Positions 7,665-58,049 of a DNA stretch of 64,000 bases are shown one piece after another. Below the pieces are notes generated by a model. The model worked only from the letters and a program-made list of their open reading frames with translations. It was not told where the DNA came from and made no database searches. This stretch comes from Spirosomataceae bacterium TFI 002 (lineage in GTDB: Bacteria > Bacteroidota > Bacteroidia > Cytophagales > Spirosomataceae). A program made the position numbers and the translations under genes. The stretch lies in NCBI GenBank assembly GCA_900230115.1, contig LT907983.1, positions 1,550,001 through 1,614,000 on the forward strand. Reading direction: 5' to 3'. Positions within the stretch are counted from its first letter, which is position 1. Every line of letters starts with the position of its first letter.

Positions 7665-10600
7665 ATGAAAAAGTGCCTTTACCTTCTCCCTATATTTTTA
7701 GTCATTTTATCTTGTTCTAATAAAGAGCAAGTTTTCGAATTAATCAGTTCATCTGAAAGCGGAGTAAGTTTTCAGAATACTGTAATCGAAAATGACTCAA
7801 TCAATATACTAACATTTGATTACACCTATAATGGTGGAGGCGTTGCCCTTGCAGACTTTAATAATGATGGTTTAAATGACATTTTCTTTTCCGCAAATAT
7901 GTCAGGAAACAAGCTTTATATTAATAATGGTAACTTTAAATTTACTGATGTCAGTAAGAAAATAGGGCTCGAAGGTTTTAAGCAATGGTGTACAGCAGCA
8001 ATAGCCGTTGATATTAACCAAGATAACTTAATGGATATCTATGTACCTGTTAGCTCCACCCGAAATACAATTCCTGAAAAAAGGCAAAACTTACTTTTTG
8101 TAAACAAGGGGTTAAATCAAGAAGGCCTTCCTATTTTCAATGAAGAGTCCAAACTATATGGCGTAAATGACGACGGATTTTCGGAGGGAGCAGCATTCTT
8201 CGATTTTGACAACGATGGAGATTTAGATTTATATGTTCTTACGAATGTAATTGACCAAAACCCAAACCTAATTCGACCTAAGCTGCTTGATGGTAGCCAT
8301 CCTAATACTGATAGGCTATATGAAAATATGGGAAAAGACGCTACAGGAATTCCACAATTTAAAAACATTTCAAATCAAGCTGGTATAACAATAGAAGGTT
8401 TTGGCCTTGGAATTAACATTGTGGACATCGACCGTGATGGTTGGAAAGACATATATATCACTAACGATTACGCTGCAGATGACCTTCTTTACCATAACAA
8501 CGGTGACGGTACTTTCTCTGATATTGCTAAAAAGTATTTCAAACATACTAGCAACTCTGCAATGGGTAATGACATAGCAGATATTAATAATGACGGACTC
8601 ATGGATATCCTTTCTTTGGATATGATGCCAGCAGTAAATATCCGTAAAAAAATGTTCGCTCCTGATAATAGTACCGAACTGTATAGGAGGTCCGATCAAT
8701 ATGGCTACACTTATCAGCACATGAGAAATACCCTTCAGCTTAATTCTGGCTTGGGTGAAAGTTTTCAAGAAATTGGCCTATTAGCTGGTATTTCAGAGAC
8801 CGATTGGAGTTGGACTCCTTCATTGGCCGATTTTAACATTGATGGCTTTCGAGATTTATTAGTTACTAATGGATTTCCTAAAGATGTTACTGACAAAGAC
8901 TTCATGACATACAGAGCCAACTCAGAACAAGTAGCAGGGAAAGAATACCTTCTTACCCAAATACCTCAGGTGAAAATAAGTAATTATGCCTTTAAGAATA
9001 CTAACGGACTACAGTTTGAAGATGTAACAGATAAATGGGGATTAAACATACCATCTTTTTCAAGTGGTGCAGCTTATGCAGATTTGGACAATGATGGCGA
9101 CTTGGATTATGTGGTAAATAATACAAATCAAGAATGTTTTTTGTATAAAAATACAACAATAGAAAAAGCCAAAGAAAATGAAAAGCAATTTGTTCGATTA
9201 CAATTCGACGGAAATAATCAAGGTATTGGAGTTATTGTTGAGGCTGACATAAGCGATCATAATGACTTTATATGGGAAAATAATCCATATCGTGGGTACA
9301 AAAGTACTGTAGAGAAAGTTTGTCAAATAGGACTAGGCGATAAAACCTTGATTCCTGAAGTAAGGGTTATATGGCCCAATGGAAAAGTAAACATTTTTAA
9401 AAATCTGACTGCTTCCCGCGAAACTATTGTTGTAAAGCAAAATGATGCTACAGATTACAATAAAGACTTAGTTCGGTCCGAAAAGCCTCTTTTTACAAAT
9501 GATGAAAATTTCAATTGGGTTCACAACGAACGACCTTTCCTTGATTACAATATACAAAACTTAATTCCATTTAAATTGTCCCAACAAGGGCCAGCGATGG
9601 CTGTTGGAGATGTCAATGGCGATGGTATCGACGACGTTTTTGTGGGTGGAGCAAAGTATAAAAAAGGAATATTTTTAATTCAAAATAAAAATGGTTCTTT
9701 TAGTAAACAAGACCTCTTGCCTGCCATAGATACAACTACAAAAAAGTCCGAAGACACTGGTGTGCTACTTTTTGATGCAGACTCAGATGGAGATTTAGAC
9801 CTTTATATTGTGAGTGGCGGAAATGAAGATTACCCAGACAGCGAATCATTTAATGATCGCTTGTATCAAAATGAAGGAGGCAAGTTTATAGATGTTTCTT
9901 ACGAACTACCAAAAAATGTAATTAGTGGATCTTGCGTGCGAGCTGGAGATATTGACAACGATGGAGATCTCGACCTTTTTGTTGCAGGAAGATTGGCCCC
10001 TACAGCTTATCCTAAGGCCACTAGTAGTGTCATTCTAATGAACCTATCAAAAGGTAATAAAATTCACTTTTCTGATGTAACAAGAAGTATCTGCCCTGAA
10101 CTCCAAAACTTTGGACTTATATCCGACGCAATATGGACGGATTTCAACAATGATAAAAAACTCGATTTGATTAGTCTTGGAGATTTTGATTCAATCCATT
10201 TTTTCGAAAACAACGGAAAAAAACTGGTCAAAAAAGAAATAACTGGACTTGAAGAATACAAGGGAGTATGGACTAGTATCAATGGAGGTGATTTTGATGG
10301 CGATGGAGATATCGACTACATCGCAGGAAACTTGGGCGAGAATATTAGATTCAAAGGGACACCAAAGGAACCTGCCATCCTACTTTCGGGAGATTTTGAT
10401 AATAATGGAATATATGATGTGATACCATTTCATTATGTCTTATCTGGAGACGGCTCTCCCAAAAAAGTAATGGTTCCCTACAATGGGAAAGGAGATATAA
10501 GCAAACAACTCAATGTTCTACGAACTCGTTTTGTTGACTTTAAATCCTATGCCACCGCAACAATCAACAATGTTTTAACACAAGAAGAACTTGCTAAAGC

Positions 10601-48870: not shown

Positions 48871-48906
48871 GGGTAAAAATACCTAGAATGGTAAGTATTT
48901 TTACCC
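48871..48906. promoter_or_regulatory. Perfect 12-bp inverted repeat before the defence island
   Basis: GGGTAAAAATAC (48871-48882) and GTATTTTTACCC (48895-48906) pair perfectly around a 12-base loop. No T run follows on the plus strand, so it is not a typical terminator for the DUF5916 gene; it may be an operator or a boundary element. Confidence 0.5.
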
Positions 48907-49001: not shown

Positions 49002-50267
49002 ATGACAAAAGATGATCCAAATTACAATTTCATAGACTTATTCGCGGGTGCTGGAGGGCTTTCAGAAGGTTTTATTCAAGCTGGTTTTGAGCCAATTGCT
49101 CATGTTGAAATTGAAAAATCGGCATGTAATACTCTAAGGACAAGAGCAGTTTATCACTATTTAAAAACCAATAAGAAATATAACACATACATTTCCTATC
49201 TCAAAGGTGAAATAACACGGGAACAACTATATAAAAGTATACCAAATGAGGTGATGGATTCTATTATAAACCTTCCAATAGGAGAGGAAAACAATAAAAA
49301 TATTCAAAAACAAATAGATAAATGCCTAGGAAATAAAAAGGTTGATATAATTATTGGAGGACCGCCTTGCCAAGCTTATTCATTAGTTGGCAGATCTCGT
49401 TCAAAGACCAAAATGGAGGGCGACCCTAGAAATTATTTGTTCGTACAATACGCTGCATATTTAGAGATATATCAGCCAAAAATGTTTGTTTTTGAGAATG
49501 TACTCGGACTTAAGTCAGCAAAGAAAGGTCACTACCTTGAAGAAATGGAAAAGCTTTTCAACGAAAAAGGCTACCGAATAAAGCTCTTTACACTTGAAGC
49601 AACAAATTTCGGTGTCTTACAAAATAGGAAAAGAGTCGTGATTCTTGGTTGGAAAAAAAATAGAAAAGTTAACATTCCGAACTTAGAAGAAATAATAGTT
49701 GAAAGTAATTACTTGGTTCAGGATTTATTGAAGGATTTGCCAGTAATTAAAGCTGGTGAAGGTGCAGATAGGTTTTTGAAATACAAAACGGAAACAACAG
49801 AATACTTAAAATCTCACGCCTTACGCAATGGTATTGACATTTTAACCCAACACATTGCAAGACCCCATAGAGATCAGGATAAAGAAATTTATAAAATTGC
49901 CGTTCAGAAATGGGAGAAAAAACAAGAAAGGTTAAATTATAACGATTTGCCAGAACGACTTAAAACCCACCGAAATCGCACTTCATTTTTTGATAGGTTT
50001 AAAGTGGTAGCTGCAGATTTGCCTTTCTCTCAAACTGTTGTTGCCCATATTTCCAAAGACGGCCATTATTATATTCATCCTGATGGCAAGCAAAACAGGT
50101 CAATCAGTGTTAGAGAAGCAGCACGACTTCAATCTTTTCCTGATGACTATTATTTTGAAGGTGAAAAAGAGGGAGCAAATAGAACGGCTGCTTTTAAACA
50201 AATTGGCAATGCTGTGCCGCCTTTGATGGCGAAAGCAATTGCAGTAAAAATTAAAGAAATTCTATAA
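49002..50267 (+). CDS. C5-cytosine DNA methyltransferase
   Basis: A 421-residue enzyme that transfers a methyl group from SAM to C5 of cytosine in DNA. Motif I is DLFAGAGG (12-19), the catalytic PC motif is GGPPCQAYS with Cys123, the ENV motif is FENV (164-167), and the last motifs are VREAARLQSFPDDYYFEG and FKQIGNAVPP. An insertion of about 90 residues between motif I and the PC motif is a departure from the simplest m5C enzymes. The target site is unknown. It is the first gene of the island and likely marks self DNA. Confidence 0.95.
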   Translation: MTKDDPNYNFIDLFAGAGGLSEGFIQAGFEPIAHVEIEKSACNTLRTRAVYHYLKTNKKYNTYISYLKGEITREQLYKSIPNEVMDSIINLPIGEENNKNIQKQIDKCLGNKKVDIIIGGPPCQAYSLVGRSRSKTKMEGDPRNYLFVQYAAYLEIYQPKMFVFENVLGLKSAKKGHYLEEMEKLFNEKGYRIKLFTLEATNFGVLQNRKRVVILGWKKNRKVNIPNLEEIIVESNYLVQDLLKDLPVIKAGEGADRFLKYKTETTEYLKSHALRNGIDILTQHIARPHRDQDKEIYKIAVQKWEKKQERLNYNDLPERLKTHRNRTSFFDRFKVVAADLPFSQTVVAHISKDGHYYIHPDGKQNRSISVREAARLQSFPDDYYFEGEKEGANRTAAFKQIGNAVPPLMAKAIAVKIKEIL

Positions 50268-50284
50268 ATTATATCTAAACCTAT

Positions 50285-50509
50285 ATGGAGATGATTTATT
50301 CTCACCCTAATTACAGAATCACATTTCTAAATGAAAAAAGCCTAAGAGAGGAATTAAAGAATTGGTGTCGCGAAGACCTAATACTTTGGCTAAAATGGAA
50401 TGATCCTAATGGAATTTACAATGACGAAGAAAGTATGGAAGAGCTTGGCAATATTATGACCTATGAAGAGGGGGTTGAAATAATTGTTAAGCAAGTAATT
50501 CAAGCCTAG
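50285..50509 (+). CDS. Small acidic protein of unknown function in the defence island
   Basis: A 74-residue protein starting MEMIYSHPNYR; the second methionine is an alternative start. It contains LREELKNWCREDLILWLKWN, then DPNGIYNDEESMEEL and TYEEGVEIIVKQVIQA. The pattern LxxWLKWNDPNGxYxDExS recurs, as I recall, in short uncharacterised Bacteroidota proteins. Its stop overlaps the GTG start of the ATPase by one base, so it belongs to the island transcript. It could be a regulator or a subunit that bridges the methyltransferase and the ATPase complex. Confidence 0.75.
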   Translation: MEMIYSHPNYRITFLNEKSLREELKNWCREDLILWLKWNDPNGIYNDEESMEELGNIMTYEEGVEIIVKQVIQA

Positions 50510-51990
50510 TGATTGACTACTCCAACATACAATCCACCTCCGCTGAACCAGAAGCAAGTTCAATGATAGAAACCTTTCGAGCGATTGGTTATTCTATAGA
50601 AACTGCTATTGCTGACATTATTGATAATTCAATTACGGCTGGAGCAAAGAATATATGGATAGATTACAATTGGAAGGGCTCAAAAACTACAATATCCATT
50701 TTGGATGATGGAACAGGGATGAATAATGAGCAGCTTGTTCAAGCAATGAGACCTGGAAGCAAAAATCCTTTGGATGAAAGAAATCGAGATGATTTAGGTC
50801 GATTTGGATTAGGACTAAAAACTGCCTCATTTTCACAATCAAGAAAATTTACTGTTTTCTCAAAAGCAAAAGATTACAAGCCAGTTTTTTGGACTTGGGA
50901 TTTAGACTTTGTTAATCAAGAAAAGGTATGGAAATTAATTAGATACATTTCTGACCAAGAAAACTGGACTAAAAAAATAGAAACTGTTGAGACTGGCACT
51001 TGTGTAATTTGGTGGGATTTGGATAGGCTTACAAAAGATACTTCTGAAGATAATGAAGAGGCTAAAAGTAAGTTTTTTGGAATTATGGATTCGGTAAAAT
51101 CTCACTTATCTATGGTTTTTCATAGATATATGGATGAAGGTTTGAAGATCTATTTACGTGAAAGAGAAATAAAATCTTGGGATCCATTTATGATTGGTGT
51201 TGATGGATTACAAACTAAACCAGAAACGAGGTTAGAAAGTGGTTTCATAAAAATAAAGGGGTTTATATTACCGCACCGTTCTAAACTTACTGCCGAACAG
51301 TATAATCTTGGAAAAGGACCAAAAGATAGTTGGACAGCTCATCAGGGATTTTATGTTTATAGAAATCGAAGATTGTTAGTTGCAGGCGACTGGCTTGGTC
51401 TCTTTAAAAGAGAAGGGCATTATGACCTTTGTAGAATTCAAATTGATTTACCAAATAATTTTGATGATGACTGGCAAATTGACATCAAGAAATCTATTGC
51501 TAGACCACCGTCAATTTACCGTGAACAAATTCTTGCACTAGCAAGAGAAGTTAGAAATCAAGCAGTAGAGGTATATAGGCACAAAGGCAAGGTGCTTAAG
51601 CGGAAATTGGCTTCGGATGAATATTTTCCATTTTGGGAAGAAAGAGCTAGGTACGGTAAGCGTTTTTATAAAATAAACCGCAAACATCCACTTTTAAATG
51701 AATTACTTTCCAAGTCTGGCGATTTGAAAAAGGAAATAGAAAAGGTAATTCAGTTTATTGAAGAAACAATACCTGTTCCTTTAATCACGCTTCAAGAAAG
51801 CGAAAATGAAAAACCTCATGGACAACCTTTTGAAGGAATAGATCACAACGCGATAAAGGAAACAATGCAAAAGCTTTTCAATGGTTTTGTTATTAGTGGA
51901 CTTTCTATAGAAAAAGCGAAGGCAAGAATATTAAATACCGAACCTTATAATTTCTATCCAGAATACATTGAATTTTTGATAAATGAGTAA
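50509..51990 (+). CDS. MORC-like GHKL ATPase
   Basis: A 493-residue HATPase-fold protein. The start is a GTG overlapping the TAG of the previous gene. ATP-binding motifs are N box ADIIDNS (35-41), G1 ILDDGTGM (64-71) and G2 GRFGLGLK (97-104). The catalytic Glu of MutL/MORC-type N boxes is replaced by Asp36, as I recall from related bacterial proteins. The GFYVYRNRRLLVAGDWLGLF segment belongs to the second (transducer-like) domain. These ATPases clamp on DNA when two subunits dimerise. It overlaps the Z1 gene by eight bases. Confidence 0.92.
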   Translation: MIDYSNIQSTSAEPEASSMIETFRAIGYSIETAIADIIDNSITAGAKNIWIDYNWKGSKTTISILDDGTGMNNEQLVQAMRPGSKNPLDERNRDDLGRFGLGLKTASFSQSRKFTVFSKAKDYKPVFWTWDLDFVNQEKVWKLIRYISDQENWTKKIETVETGTCVIWWDLDRLTKDTSEDNEEAKSKFFGIMDSVKSHLSMVFHRYMDEGLKIYLREREIKSWDPFMIGVDGLQTKPETRLESGFIKIKGFILPHRSKLTAEQYNLGKGPKDSWTAHQGFYVYRNRRLLVAGDWLGLFKREGHYDLCRIQIDLPNNFDDDWQIDIKKSIARPPSIYREQILALAREVRNQAVEVYRHKGKVLKRKLASDEYFPFWEERARYGKRFYKINRKHPLLNELLSKSGDLKKEIEKVIQFIEETIPVPLITLQESENEKPHGQPFEGIDHNAIKETMQKLFNGFVISGLSIEKAKARILNTEPYNFYPEYIEFLINE

Positions 51991-54739
51991 AAAAGACCCG
52001 ATAAAAAATATTAGACAACTGTTATCCGATAGCTCTTCATACACTAGAGAAGAAATTGAAGATGCGGTTGATGAAGTTCTTAAAATGAAGTATTTCATAA
52101 ATGAGAATCGTGAAATGCTCATAAGAAGGATTGAAGAACTTTATACTATTAGACAAGATGAGTTTGGAACAATTTTAAAGGAAGATGAAAATAATCCTTG
52201 GTTAAATGAGAAAAGATCCGAAATTGATTTTGAAAATGGTTTCTGGGGAAGGTATAGAGAGTATTTGGAAATAGAAAAGAACTTTGCACCAGATGTAATA
52301 AATAAACTCGACAGAATAACCGATAGTATTCTTGACAATTTTTTCGACCCCGCAATTAAGGCTACAATTAACAAGAAAGGGTTGGTTGTTGGGCAAGTAC
52401 AATCAGGTAAAACAGCAAATTATACAGGGCTTATCTGTAAGGCCGCTGATGCTGGTTTTGGATTAATTATCGTTTTGGCTGGAATTCACAATAACCTTAG
52501 AAGTCAAACTCAAATAAGGATTGATGAAAGTTTTTTAGGGTTTGACACACAACATACTAGGGCATTTGACCAAAGAAGTATTCAAATTGGAGTTGGAGAC
52601 CCTTACTTTGGCCCTCCAATTGTTGCTCATTCTTTAACATCAAGCATTGAGAAGGGAGACTTTACGCAAGGAGCAGCAAACGCATTAGGTTTAAACTTTA
52701 ACACTTCAGAACCGATAGTTGCGGTTATTAAAAAAAATCCTCACGTTCTCAGGAGAATATATCAATGGCTGGCAGCACAAGCAAATGAAGATAGCGAACT
52801 TGGTCGTGTAATTCGGAACAAATCACTTTTACTTATTGATGATGAAGCAGATAACGCTTCCATAAATATTTCAAACGATCCTGAACGACAAAGCTCTATT
52901 AACGGATGGATTACTCAAATACTTAATCTCTTTGGTAAAAATGCCTATGTCGGTTATACTGCTACTCCATTCGCCAATATTTTTATTCCACTGGATGACC
53001 AAAACTTATTCCCAAGAAACTTTATTAAGAATATTCCAGCACCTTCAAATTACATTGGACCAGAAAAGGTATTTGGATTTAGTCCATTGGACGAAGATGA
53101 AGCTTCTAATACAGTTCTTCCAATTGTCAATAGAATAAATGATTACAGCGGTTTTGTTCCAGATAGACACAAAAAGGATGACCAAAAACCTTCTTCCCTT
53201 CCTGAATCGTTAAAAAGAGCAATTCGCTGTTTTATAATTACTTGTGCAATAAGAAGATTAAGAGGACAAACAGCTGTTCATAACTCTATGCTTATTCACG
53301 TTTCGAGATTTGTTCTCTGGCAGGATCACATTTCGGAACTCGTATCTAATCAATTTATTTATTACAGAAGAGGCATTGACCAAAATGATCCAGTAATTCT
53401 AAATGAATTTAAATCAACATTTGAACAAGATGAAAATGGTTATAAATCTTTTGTAACCGTTTCTGAACAAATGTTGGACTCAGAGCTTAAAAATCTGGAT
53501 TCTCAAACACAAGTCCATCTATGGAGTGATGTGCTAGAACATTTGTTTGATGCAGCAGCACGAATAGAAGTAAAGTCAATCCACGGCGGTTCAGGTGAAG
53601 CCCTAGACTATTTTGACCATAAAAATGGATTATCCGTAATTGCTGTAGGCGGAAATAAACTTTCCAGAGGTTTAACCCTAGAAGGTCTTTCTATTAGTTA
53701 CTACTTACGAGCATCAAGAATGTATGACACTTTGATGCAGATGGGTCGTTGGTTCGGATATAGAGGTGGATATGCTGATTTATGTCGATTATTTACAAGT
53801 AGAGAATTGAATGAGTGGTTTTGTCATATTACACAAGCATCCGAAGAACTTAGAGAAGAATTTGATTATATGACGGATGTTGCAGGTTCAACCCCTGAGC
53901 AATACGCTTTAAAAGTTAGGACGCACCCTGGAGTACTTCAAATATCAGCAACGAATAAAATGCGTTCAGCAATTACGGTTCAAATTTCTTGGGCAGGTAG
54001 ATTAGTAGAATCTTATGAGTTTAAAAAGGACATTTCTGTAATTGATAATAATTTCAAAAACACTCAAAAATTTATAGGAACTCTTCCTTCAGGTTTTGCC
54101 ACCAAACCAAATGCTTTTGTTTGGTATGACATTCCTGCGGAGCAAGTTGTCAACTTTTTTGAAGGAATGCAATCTGTGGAAAATCTAAAAAAGGCTGAAC
54201 CTAGAAAATTAATTCAGTTTATCAGCACTCAATTAAGAAACGGTGAATTAACTGATTGGCGAATTGCTCTTATGAATAAAAAAGCACCTAAGCAATCAAA
54301 AATTTTTATTGGCGGAAAGGAAACTGATATTGGACAATGGTTTAGACGCGAAGATGATAACAACTCTAATGAGGATTTATTCTACGTAAGGAAATCTCAT
54401 ATTATCAGTCGTAAGGATGAATTCATTGATTTAACTGAATCTGAACTTGAAGATGCTAAACGACTTTCAGGAAATGTAGAAATTCCAAATGGTAAGATAG
54501 TAAGAGAACGAATTAGAGACCCCAAAAAACCACTTCTTATAATCTATCTACTCGATCCAGATGAAAGTCTTTGGAAATATCCAATGGAAAAAGGAATTAA
54601 TCCTTTTGTTGGTTATGCCATAAGCTTCCCAAAAAGTAATTTCAACGCTCCAGTATCTTATGCTGTTAATGAGGAGTTACTCGACAGGTTTGATATTGTT
54701 GAAGAAGATTTTGAAGATTATGGAGATGACGAAGATTGA
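51983..54739 (+). CDS. Z1-domain ATPase
   Basis: A 918-residue protein of the Z1 family, a variant of helicase superfamily II. The P-loop is GQVQSGKT (137-144), the Walker B-like motif is LLLIDDEAD (283-290), then YTATPFAN (about 325-332). The C-terminal helicase-like half holds GGNKLSRGLTLEGLS and LMQMGRWFGYRGGYADL. An N-terminal helical segment (1-130) precedes it. Z1 proteins are known from predicted restriction-like systems together with MORC ATPases. Overlaps of eight bases with the ATPase and 20 with the PD-(D/E)XK gene imply coupled translation. Confidence 0.92.
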   Translation: MSKKDPIKNIRQLLSDSSSYTREEIEDAVDEVLKMKYFINENREMLIRRIEELYTIRQDEFGTILKEDENNPWLNEKRSEIDFENGFWGRYREYLEIEKNFAPDVINKLDRITDSILDNFFDPAIKATINKKGLVVGQVQSGKTANYTGLICKAADAGFGLIIVLAGIHNNLRSQTQIRIDESFLGFDTQHTRAFDQRSIQIGVGDPYFGPPIVAHSLTSSIEKGDFTQGAANALGLNFNTSEPIVAVIKKNPHVLRRIYQWLAAQANEDSELGRVIRNKSLLLIDDEADNASINISNDPERQSSINGWITQILNLFGKNAYVGYTATPFANIFIPLDDQNLFPRNFIKNIPAPSNYIGPEKVFGFSPLDEDEASNTVLPIVNRINDYSGFVPDRHKKDDQKPSSLPESLKRAIRCFIITCAIRRLRGQTAVHNSMLIHVSRFVLWQDHISELVSNQFIYYRRGIDQNDPVILNEFKSTFEQDENGYKSFVTVSEQMLDSELKNLDSQTQVHLWSDVLEHLFDAAARIEVKSIHGGSGEALDYFDHKNGLSVIAVGGNKLSRGLTLEGLSISYYLRASRMYDTLMQMGRWFGYRGGYADLCRLFTSRELNEWFCHITQASEELREEFDYMTDVAGSTPEQYALKVRTHPGVLQISATNKMRSAITVQISWAGRLVESYEFKKDISVIDNNFKNTQKFIGTLPSGFATKPNAFVWYDIPAEQVVNFFEGMQSVENLKKAEPRKLIQFISTQLRNGELTDWRIALMNKKAPKQSKIFIGGKETDIGQWFRREDDNNSNEDLFYVRKSHIISRKDEFIDLTESELEDAKRLSGNVEIPNGKIVRERIRDPKKPLLIIYLLDPDESLWKYPMEKGINPFVGYAISFPKSNFNAPVSYAVNEELLDRFDIVEEDFEDYGDDED

Positions 54740-55721
54740 AAATATTTGGCTCGGTTTAGAGGGTGATAATTTCAGTCATTCAGGATTGCTTTATAAGCGA
54801 TATTCAGCAGAAGTTTTGCCTGATGTGTATATAGCTTTAAAAGTTCCAGAAAAACTAAGATGTATTTCTTTTAGAATAAGTGTCTCATTCTCTTTTGACG
54901 AAAATCAATGGAACAAACTCAAAGACATCAAGATTGAAACGCTTCCTGATGAAAGAGATAAAACCAAGAAATTTTTGCTCATTCTTTTACTTAACAAGCA
55001 ACATAAGGACATATTTTCAACCCTATGTGAGGATTTGATTTTTGGAGTATCAGAGGTAACAAATGAACAAACTTTAGTAGAAAAGTTATTAGAGCGATTA
55101 GCTAAATGGCAATCCTTATTTGAAAAAGTTGGTAAACAAGGGTTATCAGACGAAGCACAAAGAGGTCTTTACGGTGAAATTTATTTTTTACGTTTTTTCT
55201 TGAACAATACATCTGATAAAAACTATTGTCTAAAATCCTGGCTTGGTCCTGAAAAATCAATACAAGACTTTCAATATTCTAATTGGGCAGTTGAAGTAAA
55301 AACCACGCATGGTAATAATCATCAAAAAATTCATATCACTAGTGAACGGCAGTTGGATGATTCTATAATTGAAAAAATATTTCTGTTTCATCTTTCACTT
55401 GACATAAGAGTTGGAAATGGAGAATCACTAAATTCACTCATTGACGAAGTTTCGGAATTGCTGAATGTCAATACAATGGCTTCTAATTTATTTAAGCTAA
55501 AATTATTGGAATCTGGATTTTATGAAACACATAGACCTTTATATGAAGATAGAGGTTATTCCATTCGCCAAGAAAACTTGTACCGAGTTTCTGGAAATTT
55601 TCCGAGAATAGCCGAAAACCAAATTCCAATTGGTGTTGGTGATGTTAAATATTCAATTATTCTATCGGAATCAGAAGAATGGAGAATTAACACTGAGACT
55701 CTCTTGACTGAAATACAATAA
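54720..55721 (+). CDS. PD-(D/E)XK motif protein (PF14390-like predicted nuclease)
   Basis: A 333-residue protein. I start at the ATG that reads MEMTKIENIWLGLEGD, inside the end of the Z1 gene; upstream in-frame codons are a read-through of that gene. The nuclease core is GLYGEIYFLRFF (Glu153), SIQDFQYSNW (Asp183) and WAVEVKTT (Glu192-V-Lys194), the E...D...ExK arrangement of PF14390. The N-terminal half (VYIALKVPEK, IETLPDERD) is the domain usually found before it. It is the probable DNA-cutting component. The AIPR gene follows six bases later. Confidence 0.92.
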   Translation: MEMTKIENIWLGLEGDNFSHSGLLYKRYSAEVLPDVYIALKVPEKLRCISFRISVSFSFDENQWNKLKDIKIETLPDERDKTKKFLLILLLNKQHKDIFSTLCEDLIFGVSEVTNEQTLVEKLLERLAKWQSLFEKVGKQGLSDEAQRGLYGEIYFLRFFLNNTSDKNYCLKSWLGPEKSIQDFQYSNWAVEVKTTHGNNHQKIHITSERQLDDSIIEKIFLFHLSLDIRVGNGESLNSLIDEVSELLNVNTMASNLFKLKLLESGFYETHRPLYEDRGYSIRQENLYRVSGNFPRIAENQIPIGVGDVKYSIILSESEEWRINTETLLTEIQ

Positions 55722-55727
55722 TTATTT

Positions 55728-58049
55728 ATGGAGAATCAAGAATTACAAAAGTTCTATGTAGATAACCAAGAAGAAATTAAAGCAACATTAATTTCGGAAG
55801 AAGACGGAACAAACCCAGAGCAGATATTTACTGAACTCGCACTATCTCTACTTCAAGAAGCTGGTGAAACCGAAAATTATCGTGTTTGTTTTGATGAAAA
55901 GATTAGTAGAAGAGGTATTGAGCACAAAATAAATGGCTATTCACTTTATGAAAACTATGAAACACTTGACTTGTTCGTAACCATCTATAATGCTGATTCT
56001 AAAATTCAAAGCATTGCCAAAGGAGAGGCTGAAAAAACATTAGAAAGAGCGGTCAAATTTTTCAGAAATGCAATTTATAAAGACTATGTAAACGAAATCG
56101 AGGAAAGTTCCGAAATATTCGACTTGGCACAAACTTTAGCTAATGTACCCGAAATAAAAGAATACCTCACTCGAGTAAATATTTTTTTAATTACGAATGG
56201 AGAATTAAAGACCGATTTGAAAACCACAAATTCTACGATAGCCGGTTACTCGGTTTTTTATAGAATAATCGATTTAAACTACCTTTTCAATCTTTCAGAT
56301 AAATCCAGAGTACCCATTGAAATTAATTTTGAAAGTGCAGGATATAAAGTTCCTTGCATTGTAAATGAAGCTGAAAATTCTGATTATCAATCTTGGTTAG
56401 CAATTATACCAGGAATGGCACTTGCTGATATTTACGAACAATATGGAGCAAGGCTACTAGAACAAAACGTGCGTTCATTTCTTCAATTTACGGGTAAAAT
56501 AAACAAAGGTATACGAAACACTATTTTAAAAGAGCAGCATATGTTTATGGCTTTTAATAATGGCATTGCTGCGACTGCTGAAGAAGTTACCATAACTAAT
56601 TTACCCAATAATGAAGGTAAAGCCATCGCACTAGTTAGAGATTTTCAAATTGTAAATGGGGGCCAAACCACAGCGTCAGTTTATCATACATGGAAAAAAG
56701 ATAAAGTTGATATCAGCAAAGTATTTGTACCTGTTAAATTAACCATCGTAAAAAATCGAGAAAATTTCTCTGAAATAGTAGGTCGTATTGCAGAATATGC
56801 AAATACTCAAAATAAAGTTTCTGCATCAGATTTAAGCTCAAACAGAGAGAATCTCGTTTTAATCGAAAAATTATCTAGAACAATTTGGGCCCCGCCAATT
56901 TCGGGTGAAACGACTCAAACACGTTGGTTTTTTGAACGTTCGAGAGGTCAATTCAAGAATGATAGAAATAGAAATGGCATAACTGCTTCTAAACGAAAAC
57001 AATTTGACAGGCAAAATCCTCGTAGTCAAATGTTTACTAAAGAATCATTAGCAAAATATATAAATTCTTACGCTGAAGAATATCACAGCAAAAAGTTGGT
57101 AATCGGTCCACATATTGTTGTAAGAGGAAGTCAGAAAAATTATGCTCAATTTCTAAACTATAATTTCAGTTTCAAACCAGACAATATCTGGTTTGAAGAT
57201 TTAATTGCTAAAGCTATATTGTTTAAAAACGCAGAGAAAATTTATGGAGTTAAACCAAATGCCATTGGTGACATGAGATACATAACAGTACCTTATTCCT
57301 TAGCTTGGTTAGCTCTGAAAATAAATTATAAACTCGATTTATACAAAATATGGAAGCAACAATCATTGAGTGAAAATCTTAAGACAAAGTTATATGAAGT
57401 AATGCTTAGAATAGAGGATTACATCAAAATAAACGCACCAGGTTCTTTGTATGGGGAATGGGCAAAAAAAGAAGAATGTTGGAATGCAATCAAAAGTGAA
57501 GATTTTGACTTTGATCTAGAAAGTTTATCATTAGACTTAGAAAACAAATCATCTGAAAAACGAAAAAAAATAAGTGATGATATCTTATTGGAAGAGCAAC
57601 GAAATCAAAATATTGATTTGTTAAGATCAATTGATCCTAAAACTTGGTTATTGATTGAAAGCTGGGGAAGGGAAACTGGACATCTAACAAGGTTTCAATA
57701 TGATATAGTTTTCAATATACAAGGTAGAATAAGAAATCAAAGAGAATTTTCAGAAAAGGAAATTGAAACAGGTATTTTAATTTTAAATGTAGTTTCTGAA
57801 AAGAAACCAGAGCTTTTTTACAGTGTAGACGAAAATTACTTTCCAGAAACGAAGAACGTTGATGTTTTACAAATTGATCTTGATTTGATACAACGTATGG
57901 TAAAATGGGATAAAAAGAATAAGAGACTTGCACCATTTAAATATCGACTAATGGCTGATTTAGCCGAAGGGAAAAAAGATTTAACGGAACGTAATAAATT
58001 TTTGGCCAATCTAAATTACCAAATGTTAAAAAAATGGGGATTTGAATAG
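55728..58049 (+). CDS. AIPR family protein (abortive phage infection-associated)
   Basis: A 773-residue protein of the AIPR family (PF10592). The family core is HMFMAFNNGIAATAEEV (near residue 275) followed by RDFQIVNGGQTTASVYH (near 307-323), with EYANTQNKVSASDLSSNREN after. An N-terminal region (DLFVTIYNADSKIQSI) could be a Mrr-like fold, but this is uncertain. AIPR proteins were first linked to abortive infection and are part of predicted restriction systems with Z1 and MORC genes. It is the last gene of the island, and its codon use is as AT-rich as the others. Confidence 0.92.
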   Translation: MENQELQKFYVDNQEEIKATLISEEDGTNPEQIFTELALSLLQEAGETENYRVCFDEKISRRGIEHKINGYSLYENYETLDLFVTIYNADSKIQSIAKGEAEKTLERAVKFFRNAIYKDYVNEIEESSEIFDLAQTLANVPEIKEYLTRVNIFLITNGELKTDLKTTNSTIAGYSVFYRIIDLNYLFNLSDKSRVPIEINFESAGYKVPCIVNEAENSDYQSWLAIIPGMALADIYEQYGARLLEQNVRSFLQFTGKINKGIRNTILKEQHMFMAFNNGIAATAEEVTITNLPNNEGKAIALVRDFQIVNGGQTTASVYHTWKKDKVDISKVFVPVKLTIVKNRENFSEIVGRIAEYANTQNKVSASDLSSNRENLVLIEKLSRTIWAPPISGETTQTRWFFERSRGQFKNDRNRNGITASKRKQFDRQNPRSQMFTKESLAKYINSYAEEYHSKKLVIGPHIVVRGSQKNYAQFLNYNFSFKPDNIWFEDLIAKAILFKNAEKIYGVKPNAIGDMRYITVPYSLAWLALKINYKLDLYKIWKQQSLSENLKTKLYEVMLRIEDYIKINAPGSLYGEWAKKEECWNAIKSEDFDFDLESLSLDLENKSSEKRKKISDDILLEEQRNQNIDLLRSIDPKTWLLIESWGRETGHLTRFQYDIVFNIQGRIRNQREFSEKEIETGILILNVVSEKKPELFYSVDENYFPETKNVDVLQIDLDLIQRMVKWDKKNKRLAPFKYRLMADLAEGKKDLTERNKFLANLNYQMLKKWGFE

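Follow-up and report, generated by a model that had tools for sequence, protein, structure and literature searches.

A methylase-bearing relative of the MZA defence operon, and probable methylation-gated restriction system, in Spirosomataceae bacterium TFI 002

We show herein that a six-gene island of Spirosomataceae bacterium TFI 002 belongs, with all its genes intact, to a widespread defence operon type, a methylase-bearing relative of MZA. The island occupies positions 49002-58049 of a 64,000-nucleotide stretch of contig LT907983.1 (positions 1,550,001 to 1,614,000; hereafter the window), and its six open reading frames, all on the + strand, are tightly packed, with overlapping genes, at the places given by an initial annotation made from the sequence alone. 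They code for a C5-cytosine (m5C) DNA methyltransferase, a 74-residue acidic protein, a MORC-family ATPase, a Z1 ATPase, a DUF4420 nuclease and an AIPR protein. This gene set is itself not new. Judged by its sequence, the island is probably a methylation-gated, ATP-driven restriction system. That reading is supported by the protein families and their intact motifs, by the retention of gene set and order across phyla, and by an association of relatives with Vsr; in addition, relatives methylate DNA in vivo, the Z1 ATPases of CglI and NgoAVII offer an analogy, and MZA is a validated system. Three features were not found in print in the open literature: a family of small methylase-linked proteins to which the 74-residue protein belongs, an exchange of AIPR tails, and an AIPR architecture that joins a nuclease-like to a ParB-like fold.

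Antiphage validation of MZA (mzaABCDE) is said to go back to Gao in 2020. Homologues of MzaB, MzaC, MzaD and MzaE are found in the island in the same order. MzaA (683 residues) is absent, its position being taken by the m5C methylase; the island moreover adds the 74-residue gene and an AIPR C-terminal tail of ~180 residues. The only match to MzaA in the genome, a 290-residue open reading frame at C1:5281328, 3.7 Mb away, covers model residues 403-667, the sigma-factor part, and is most likely a housekeeping sigma factor. Miller, Stern and Burstein 2022 (PMC9523054) describe MzaA as a sigma factor and MZA as an experimentally validated antiphage system.

A previous study predicted an operon type in which MORC, a Z1 helicase and a novel nuclease of restriction-endonuclease fold form a restriction-modification system with DCM, Vsr and AIPR (Iyer, Abhiman and Aravind 2008, PMC2292703). 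As far as the relevant portion of that paper goes, the island shares with those operons the MORC S5 motif, the Z1 signature DThhQXuRhFG, the E-D-ExK nuclease, a cytosine methylase and AIPR; Vsr, frequent there but not obligatory, is absent here, and the same portion does not mention the 74-residue protein. A more recent survey listed a putative defence system, "Type II", which according to the excerpted text has a Z1 protein, a PD-(D/E)XK protein, a cytosine methylase, AIPR and an associated MORC protein, all present in the island; that excerpt mentions neither the 74-residue protein nor AIPR tail variation (Miller et al. 2022). At the M.Pin25611FIII locus of Prevotella intermedia an m5C methylase is joined by genes for Z1 and AIPR, a likeness in gene content, and a methylase-encoding locus of Listeria has been named mza. 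CglI, NgoAVII and BceSIV also combine an m5C methylase with a Z1 ATPase of superfamily 2 (SF2), which they require for ATP-dependent cleavage. Their nuclease, however, is of the PLD type with a B3 recognition domain, whereas the island has a DUF4420 PD-(D/E)XK nuclease together with MORC and AIPR; Pfam gave no PLD or B3 match in any of the six proteins. The view in the initial annotation that the system is under-described stands for its mechanism, since the literature yielded no worked-out mechanism for any methylase-type MZA operon. It does not stand for the gene combination: the core is MzaB to MzaE, the methylase-bearing form was predicted in 2008 and listed in 2022, and relatives have published motifs.

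The identities of the methylase, MORC, Z1 and DUF4420 proteins follow from their sequences. Family calls were made with Pfam, PADLOC and NCBIfam, and the conservation of motifs was read from alignments of 60-79 relatives, depending on the protein. These searches bore out the domain calls and the restriction-like reading of the initial annotation and, as to defence-system model sets, matched genes 3 to 6 to MzaB, MzaC, MzaD and MzaE. The methylase has its best PADLOC model in DrmMII (PDLC02649, 575 bits); its motifs GGPPCQ, ENV and QxRxR are intact and invariant among 68 relatives, and its specificity region, about residues 222-350 (49665-50051), is flanked by motifs VIII and IX. The MORC ATPase matches MzaB in PADLOC (PDLC02204, 7e-109) and retains DxxDNS, DDGxGM and GxFGxGxKxAS; the MORC-defining S5 motif GhXhhpXXRhl is matched by GFYVYRNRRLL at residue 280, with G, F, Y, Y, R and R at 100% in 74 relatives. 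The Z1 ATPase matches MzaC (PDLC02205, 3e-169) with GQVQSGKT and DDEAD intact, and its DTLMQMGRWFG, which fits DThhQXuRhFG, is conserved at 100% in 79 relatives. The nuclease matches MzaD more weakly (7e-24). Its E-D-ExK set comprises GE172-173, D203 and E212-x-K214, counted from the start at 54660, each at 100% in 72 relatives. Taken together, the key catalytic positions of the four enzymes are 94-100% conserved across 68-79 relatives, in keeping with the earlier statement that every enzyme has intact motifs. AIPR matches MzaE (PDLC02207, 6e-87). For Z1 and AIPR, the PDB yielded no relative by sequence.

Querying 84,980 genomes in a single scan for relatives of the Z1 protein gave 80 loci, mostly in Bacteroidota but also in archaea, Chloroflexota, Cyanobacteria, Planctomycetota, Ignavibacteriales and Calditrichaeota. 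Among these Z1-picked loci, counted where the contig reached far enough, MORC is present in 73 of 76, the methylase in 55 of 57, the nuclease in 71 of 75 and AIPR in 63 of 66. This co-occurrence is far above chance. The initial annotation had allowed for the genes not occurring together elsewhere, which was not borne out. Since the methylase is present in 55 of 57, the methylase form is the common one among these relatives. Gene set and order are kept in Bacteroidota, archaea, Chloroflexota, Cyanobacteria, Planctomycetota, Proteobacteria and Actinomycetota, and the same order recurs on annotated plasmids of Agrobacterium, Rhizobium, Hymenobacter and Pseudarthrobacter. In 41 of 72 loci no gene lies between methylase and MORC (<100 bp); in the others this slot holds exchangeable genes, for example NOV_C/DUF3883-like, a GHKL plus receiver-like pair, or DUF2971. 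The GHKL/receiver pair resembles two-component-like elements already tied to m5C methylases and paraMORC. At L020 (loci are given by our own numbers) a truncated remnant of a GHKL accessory protein occupies the slot (8250-8560), a sign of slot turnover. A variant arrangement was seen at L083, L084, L093 and L097, where DUF4420 is missing, Z1 has ~1200 residues and an SMC/RecF-like ATPase of ~630 residues precedes AIPR.

The window methylase is the sole m5C methylase found in a search of the whole genome, and no match to Vsr (PF03852) was found in that genome. Vsr is a mismatch nuclease that repairs the products of m5C deamination. A Vsr gene adjoins 39 of the 80 relative loci, as expected if their methylases are active. 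Relatives do methylate in vivo, at GCWGC in P. intermedia (the M.Pin25611FIII locus) and at GCAGC in Listeria (the methylase-encoding mza). Motifs of the GCNGC type recur in Z1-linked systems, those just named as well as CglI and NgoAVII (GCSGC) and BceSIV (GCWGC). Statistics of host words, taken over the window and samples of its own genome (864 kb in total), did not yield the motif of the island: the low values of CCWGG (0.67) and GGWCC (0.68) recur in relatives that lack the locus, and CCGG, at 0.56 of expectation in this sample, shows no excess of the deamination products CTGG/CCAG. CCGG is not depleted in the same-family relative G406 (1.09) or in high-G+C relatives (0.94).

AIPR was studied both by comparison and by modelling. 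In an AlphaFold model (mean predicted local distance difference test score, pLDDT, 82.9), residues 1-193 form an alpha/beta domain with five long strands. Fold neighbours were sought by VIA-align and Foldseek; the latter gave no significant match for AIPR. By VIA-align, the top score (Z 9.4, in a range that can be background) falls to FokI (151 residues aligned, root-mean-square deviation (rmsd) 4.1) and AF1548 (116 aligned, rmsd 3.4), followed by MspJI, HamA, BspD6I, NucC, SduA, Can2 and McrC, and nucleases of restriction-endonuclease fold make up most of the top 14 chains. Conserved acids and a lysine are present (E31 invariant, E78 and D81 at 96%, K67 at 93%); the canonical (E/Q)xK of PD-(D/E)XK enzymes was not recognised at its expected place within residues 1-193. 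A nuclease-like fold is therefore likely, not proven. Residues 216-373 give Z 6.2, again of a size that can be background, to the ParB-N domain of pNOB8 (103 aligned, rmsd 4.0) and lower values to Srx and SspE; they include an IVNGGQT motif conserved at 100% in 60 relatives. The N-terminal half of AIPR is thus predicted to combine two folds, the first restriction-endonuclease-like and the second ParB-like. Work published in 2012 noted a link between DndB and AIPR and predicted a HEPN toxin domain for AIPR. Our model fits the former and disagrees with the latter: its N-terminus is not all-alpha, and the consensus of 43 AIPRs contains no R-x4-6-H, a result that bears on a predicted structure and on this subfamily only.

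The tail of AIPR behaves differently from the rest of the protein. The MzaE model (NF041935) stops at residue 594 of the present protein, so that the tail is outside MzaE models. Among close loci, residues 1-590 are ~86% identical as against ~52% for residues 600-773, and DNA identity falls sharply near codon 600. The tails occur as discrete alleles: those of L024 and L022 are 97% identical and those of L024 and L030 only 29%, despite identities of 98% for the rest of AIPR, 97% for MORC and 95-99% for the methylase. A tail that serves as a target-recognition domain matched to the methylase was rejected, the Spearman correlation with the specificity region being 0.07 in close pairs; moreover, the specificity regions of L024 and L030 are 95% identical.

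The 74-residue protein (isoelectric point 4.4) lies in the slot between methylase and MORC, a position that its relatives share in L021 and L072. Its family has the core R..I.WL.WND.NG.Y.D..S..E, with 13 invariant columns in a 9-row alignment. It was surveyed in 395 genomes sampled from the same phylum, and in plasmids and viral contigs. The genomes gave five strong cellular matches outside MZA loci, all beside an m5C methylase: L128, with Vsr and a type II nuclease; L129, beside an XRE-methylase fusion; L130, in a LlaJI-type locus; and L131 and L132, with the DISARM components DrmD and DrmB, respectively. Since an m5C methylase probably occurs about once or twice per genome, adjacency in five of five would not be expected by chance. 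On plasmids, a Pedobacter copy precedes two methylases and a Marinobacter copy is 6.5 kb from one. We infer from these sequences that the methylase, and not the MORC/Z1 machine, is what this subfamily pairs with or regulates. Its fold gave no lead: the model is small and helical (pLDDT 74.6), and the best PDB matches, DEK and CARP2 (Z ~5), are not above background. A second family of small proteins (~94-107 residues, motif HPDEDFxxYIN), often found together with the 74-residue family, recurs beside m5C methylase and Vsr genes (L130:7217-7516, L132:7776-8060, L048:3128-3451 and L144:3619-3906).

In the mechanism that we propose, the methylase would label the host chromosome at a short motif. 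The MORC protein would close as a clamp round incoming DNA that lacks this mark, and the Z1 ATPase may translocate or remodel that DNA, as in the Z1-containing CglI and NgoAVII, whose Z1 ATPases hydrolyse ATP on unmethylated sites and are required for cleavage. The DUF4420 nuclease would then cut the unmarked DNA. AIPR, with its predicted nuclease-like N-terminal fold and a putative ParB-like nucleotide switch, may be a regulatory or second effector subunit, and its fast-changing tail probably touches a partner from the phage or from the host. For the 74-residue protein the most likely role is to bind or regulate the methylase, for example so as to delay or limit modification, given that m5C methylases are found with its relatives in otherwise unlike systems. 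A bolder combined proposal, which we hold tentatively and rate below an even chance, is that the 74-residue protein is the founder of a group of small acidic m5C-methylase regulators across MZA-type, DISARM, LlaJI-type and XRE-methylase loci, and that AIPR is a ParB-switched subunit of nuclease fold with its tail as an exchangeable sensor or target-contact domain.

Several observations weigh against restriction as the function of the island. All four homologues score below every NCBIfam equivalog cut-off for MZA: MzaB 428 bits against 850 (NF041932), MzaC 665 against 1500 (NF041933), MzaD 140 against 420 and MzaE 381 against 1050 (NF041935). GCWGC is not depleted in the host (observed/expected 1.00). 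At L027 the methylase is a distant one (24% identity in the catalytic part, 14% in the specificity region) beside a MORC at 87% and a nuclease at 86%, in a core that stays ~85% identical, and no core protein changes to match this exchange, so the specificity element of the restriction machine is not pinpointed. No published experiment was found that shows phage protection or DNA cleavage by this locus or by any methylase-type member. As to specificity partners, the Z1 C-terminus, the nuclease N-terminus and MORC were tried and rejected, with no clear co-variation (Spearman 0.04 to 0.36). The Z1 C-terminus is exchanged at L036 (9899-12715), where residues ~660-918 are ~25% identical to the window protein as against ~80% for the N-terminal part, and the methylase is nonetheless of the same class. 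Either a few residues, below the resolution reached here, carry the specificity, or methylases of different lineages have overlapping motifs, as the recurrence of GCNGC-type motifs suggests.

Other readings divide the genes in other ways. Five core genes that are full-length, with invariant catalytic motifs and overlapping frames, and neighbours conserved at 75-95% identity in other genera, make it very improbable that the methylase alone is active, in gene regulation or in shielding from other restriction, beside a decayed or non-functional remnant. Such a solitary role has in its favour that orphan m5C methylases are common, that this one, the only one in its genome, could act alone, and that parts do decay in relatives, as the truncated slot gene of L020 indicates. 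Somewhat better placed, yet still unlikely, is abortive infection, in which the methylase and ATPases would sense infection and AIPR would harm the host, as an RNase/HEPN toxin or through ParB-like nucleotide depletion, so that the cell dies and phage DNA is not what is cut. The initial annotation had named AIPR as a possible abortive effector. AIPR takes its name from this mode of defence, the HEPN prediction and the relationship to DndB agree with it, and the AIPR C-terminus evolves fastest of the components, as for an arms-race effector or sensor; the predicted alpha/beta N-terminal domain with its restriction-endonuclease-like neighbours, the lack of a conserved R-x4-6-H, and an intact dedicated DUF4420 nuclease with a methylase in nearly all relatives favour DNA targeting instead.

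A further alternative concerns only the 74-residue protein, which might be an unrelated passenger, or an anti-restriction protein of phage origin, in the accessory slot and no partner of the methylase. We take this as a real, if minority, possibility: the family is present in only 4 of the 80 MZA-type loci, the protein is acidic like DNA mimics, and among 19 relatives on viral contigs, where only two adjoin a methylase, the other 17 lack an m5C methylase within 4 kb and are mostly shorter phage open reading frames. On the contrary, the five cellular matches and one of the two plasmid matches are close to an m5C methylase, the methylases belong to systems as unlike as DISARM, LlaJI-type and XRE-methylase restriction loci, and the core of the family is invariant.

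If a small regulator is common to several unrelated methylation-based defences, it would be of general interest. The comparison leaves three handles, namely the carrier of restriction specificity, given that the methylase can be exchanged while the core stays the same, the contact made by the AIPR tail, and possible control of the methylase by the 74-residue protein. What MORC, Z1 and AIPR do in prokaryotes also matters for where the eukaryotic MORC chromatin ATPases came from.

Table 1. Features of the island and its upstream flank, in window coordinates
Feature	Coordinates	Strand	Evidence or remark
Perfect 12-bp inverted repeat, GGGTAAAAATAC-N12-GTATTTTTACCC	48871..48906	.	Directly upstream of methylase gene
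C5-cytosine DNA methyltransferase, 421 residues	49002..50267	+	PF00145, E=5.7e-66
74-residue acidic protein	50285..50509	+	No match in Pfam, PADLOC, NCBIfam
MORC-family GHKL-S5 ATPase, MzaB homologue, 493 residues, GTG start	50509..51990	+	HATPase_c_3
SF2-type ATPase with Z1 domain, MzaC homologue, 918 residues	51983..54739	+	PF10593, 6e-80
DUF4420 PD-(D/E)XK nuclease, MzaD homologue, 333 residues (353 from in-frame ATG 54660)	54720..55721	+	PF14390, 2e-78
AIPR protein, MzaE homologue, 773 residues	55728..58049	+	PF22879 (AIPR_N), 4e-40; PF10592, 3.5e-90
AIPR residues 1-193, predicted restriction-endonuclease-like (PD-(D/E)XK) fold	55728..56306	+	AlphaFold, VIA-align
AIPR residues 216-373, predicted ParB/sulfiredoxin-like fold with IVNGGQT	56373..56846	+	VIA-align
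AIPR residues 600-773, hypervariable helical C-terminal region, allelically exchanged	57525..58046	+	Allele comparison

The overlaps reported by the initial annotation agree with the present coordinates: 8 bases between the MORC ATPase and Z1, and 20 bases between Z1 and the nuclease if the latter begins at the downstream ATG 54720 (80 bases from the first ATG, 54660). The 74-residue gene and the ATPase gene have one base in common (50509). The island has a G+C content of 33.8%, as against 37.4% for the genome, and is flanked by a DUF5916 gene on one side and a short-chain dehydrogenase gene on the other. G406 has no such island: there, ~2.3 kb and a sulfatase-like gene separate the gene for glutamyl-tRNA synthetase from that for the dehydrogenase. 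Nor did a search of 19 same-family genomes find a Z1 gene in any of them. This interval thus varies between genomes, and the island was probably acquired. At its ends we found neither a tRNA nor an integrase gene, and no noteworthy direct repeats. The inverted repeat upstream of the methylase gene is the sole match within the window at up to three mismatches, where none is expected, and may be a terminator of the preceding gene or an operator.

Finally, GCGC does not occur at all in 864 kb sampled from this genome, against an expectation of ~640 occurrences on a single strand. Four relatives from the family (G406, G401, G402 and G395, all small samples) likewise have none or almost none of it, but the other genera that we sampled have it at normal frequency. 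The island does not account for this absence, because the relatives that share it have no Z1 gene. One idea is that an unprotected GCGC-specific nuclease lies behind it.

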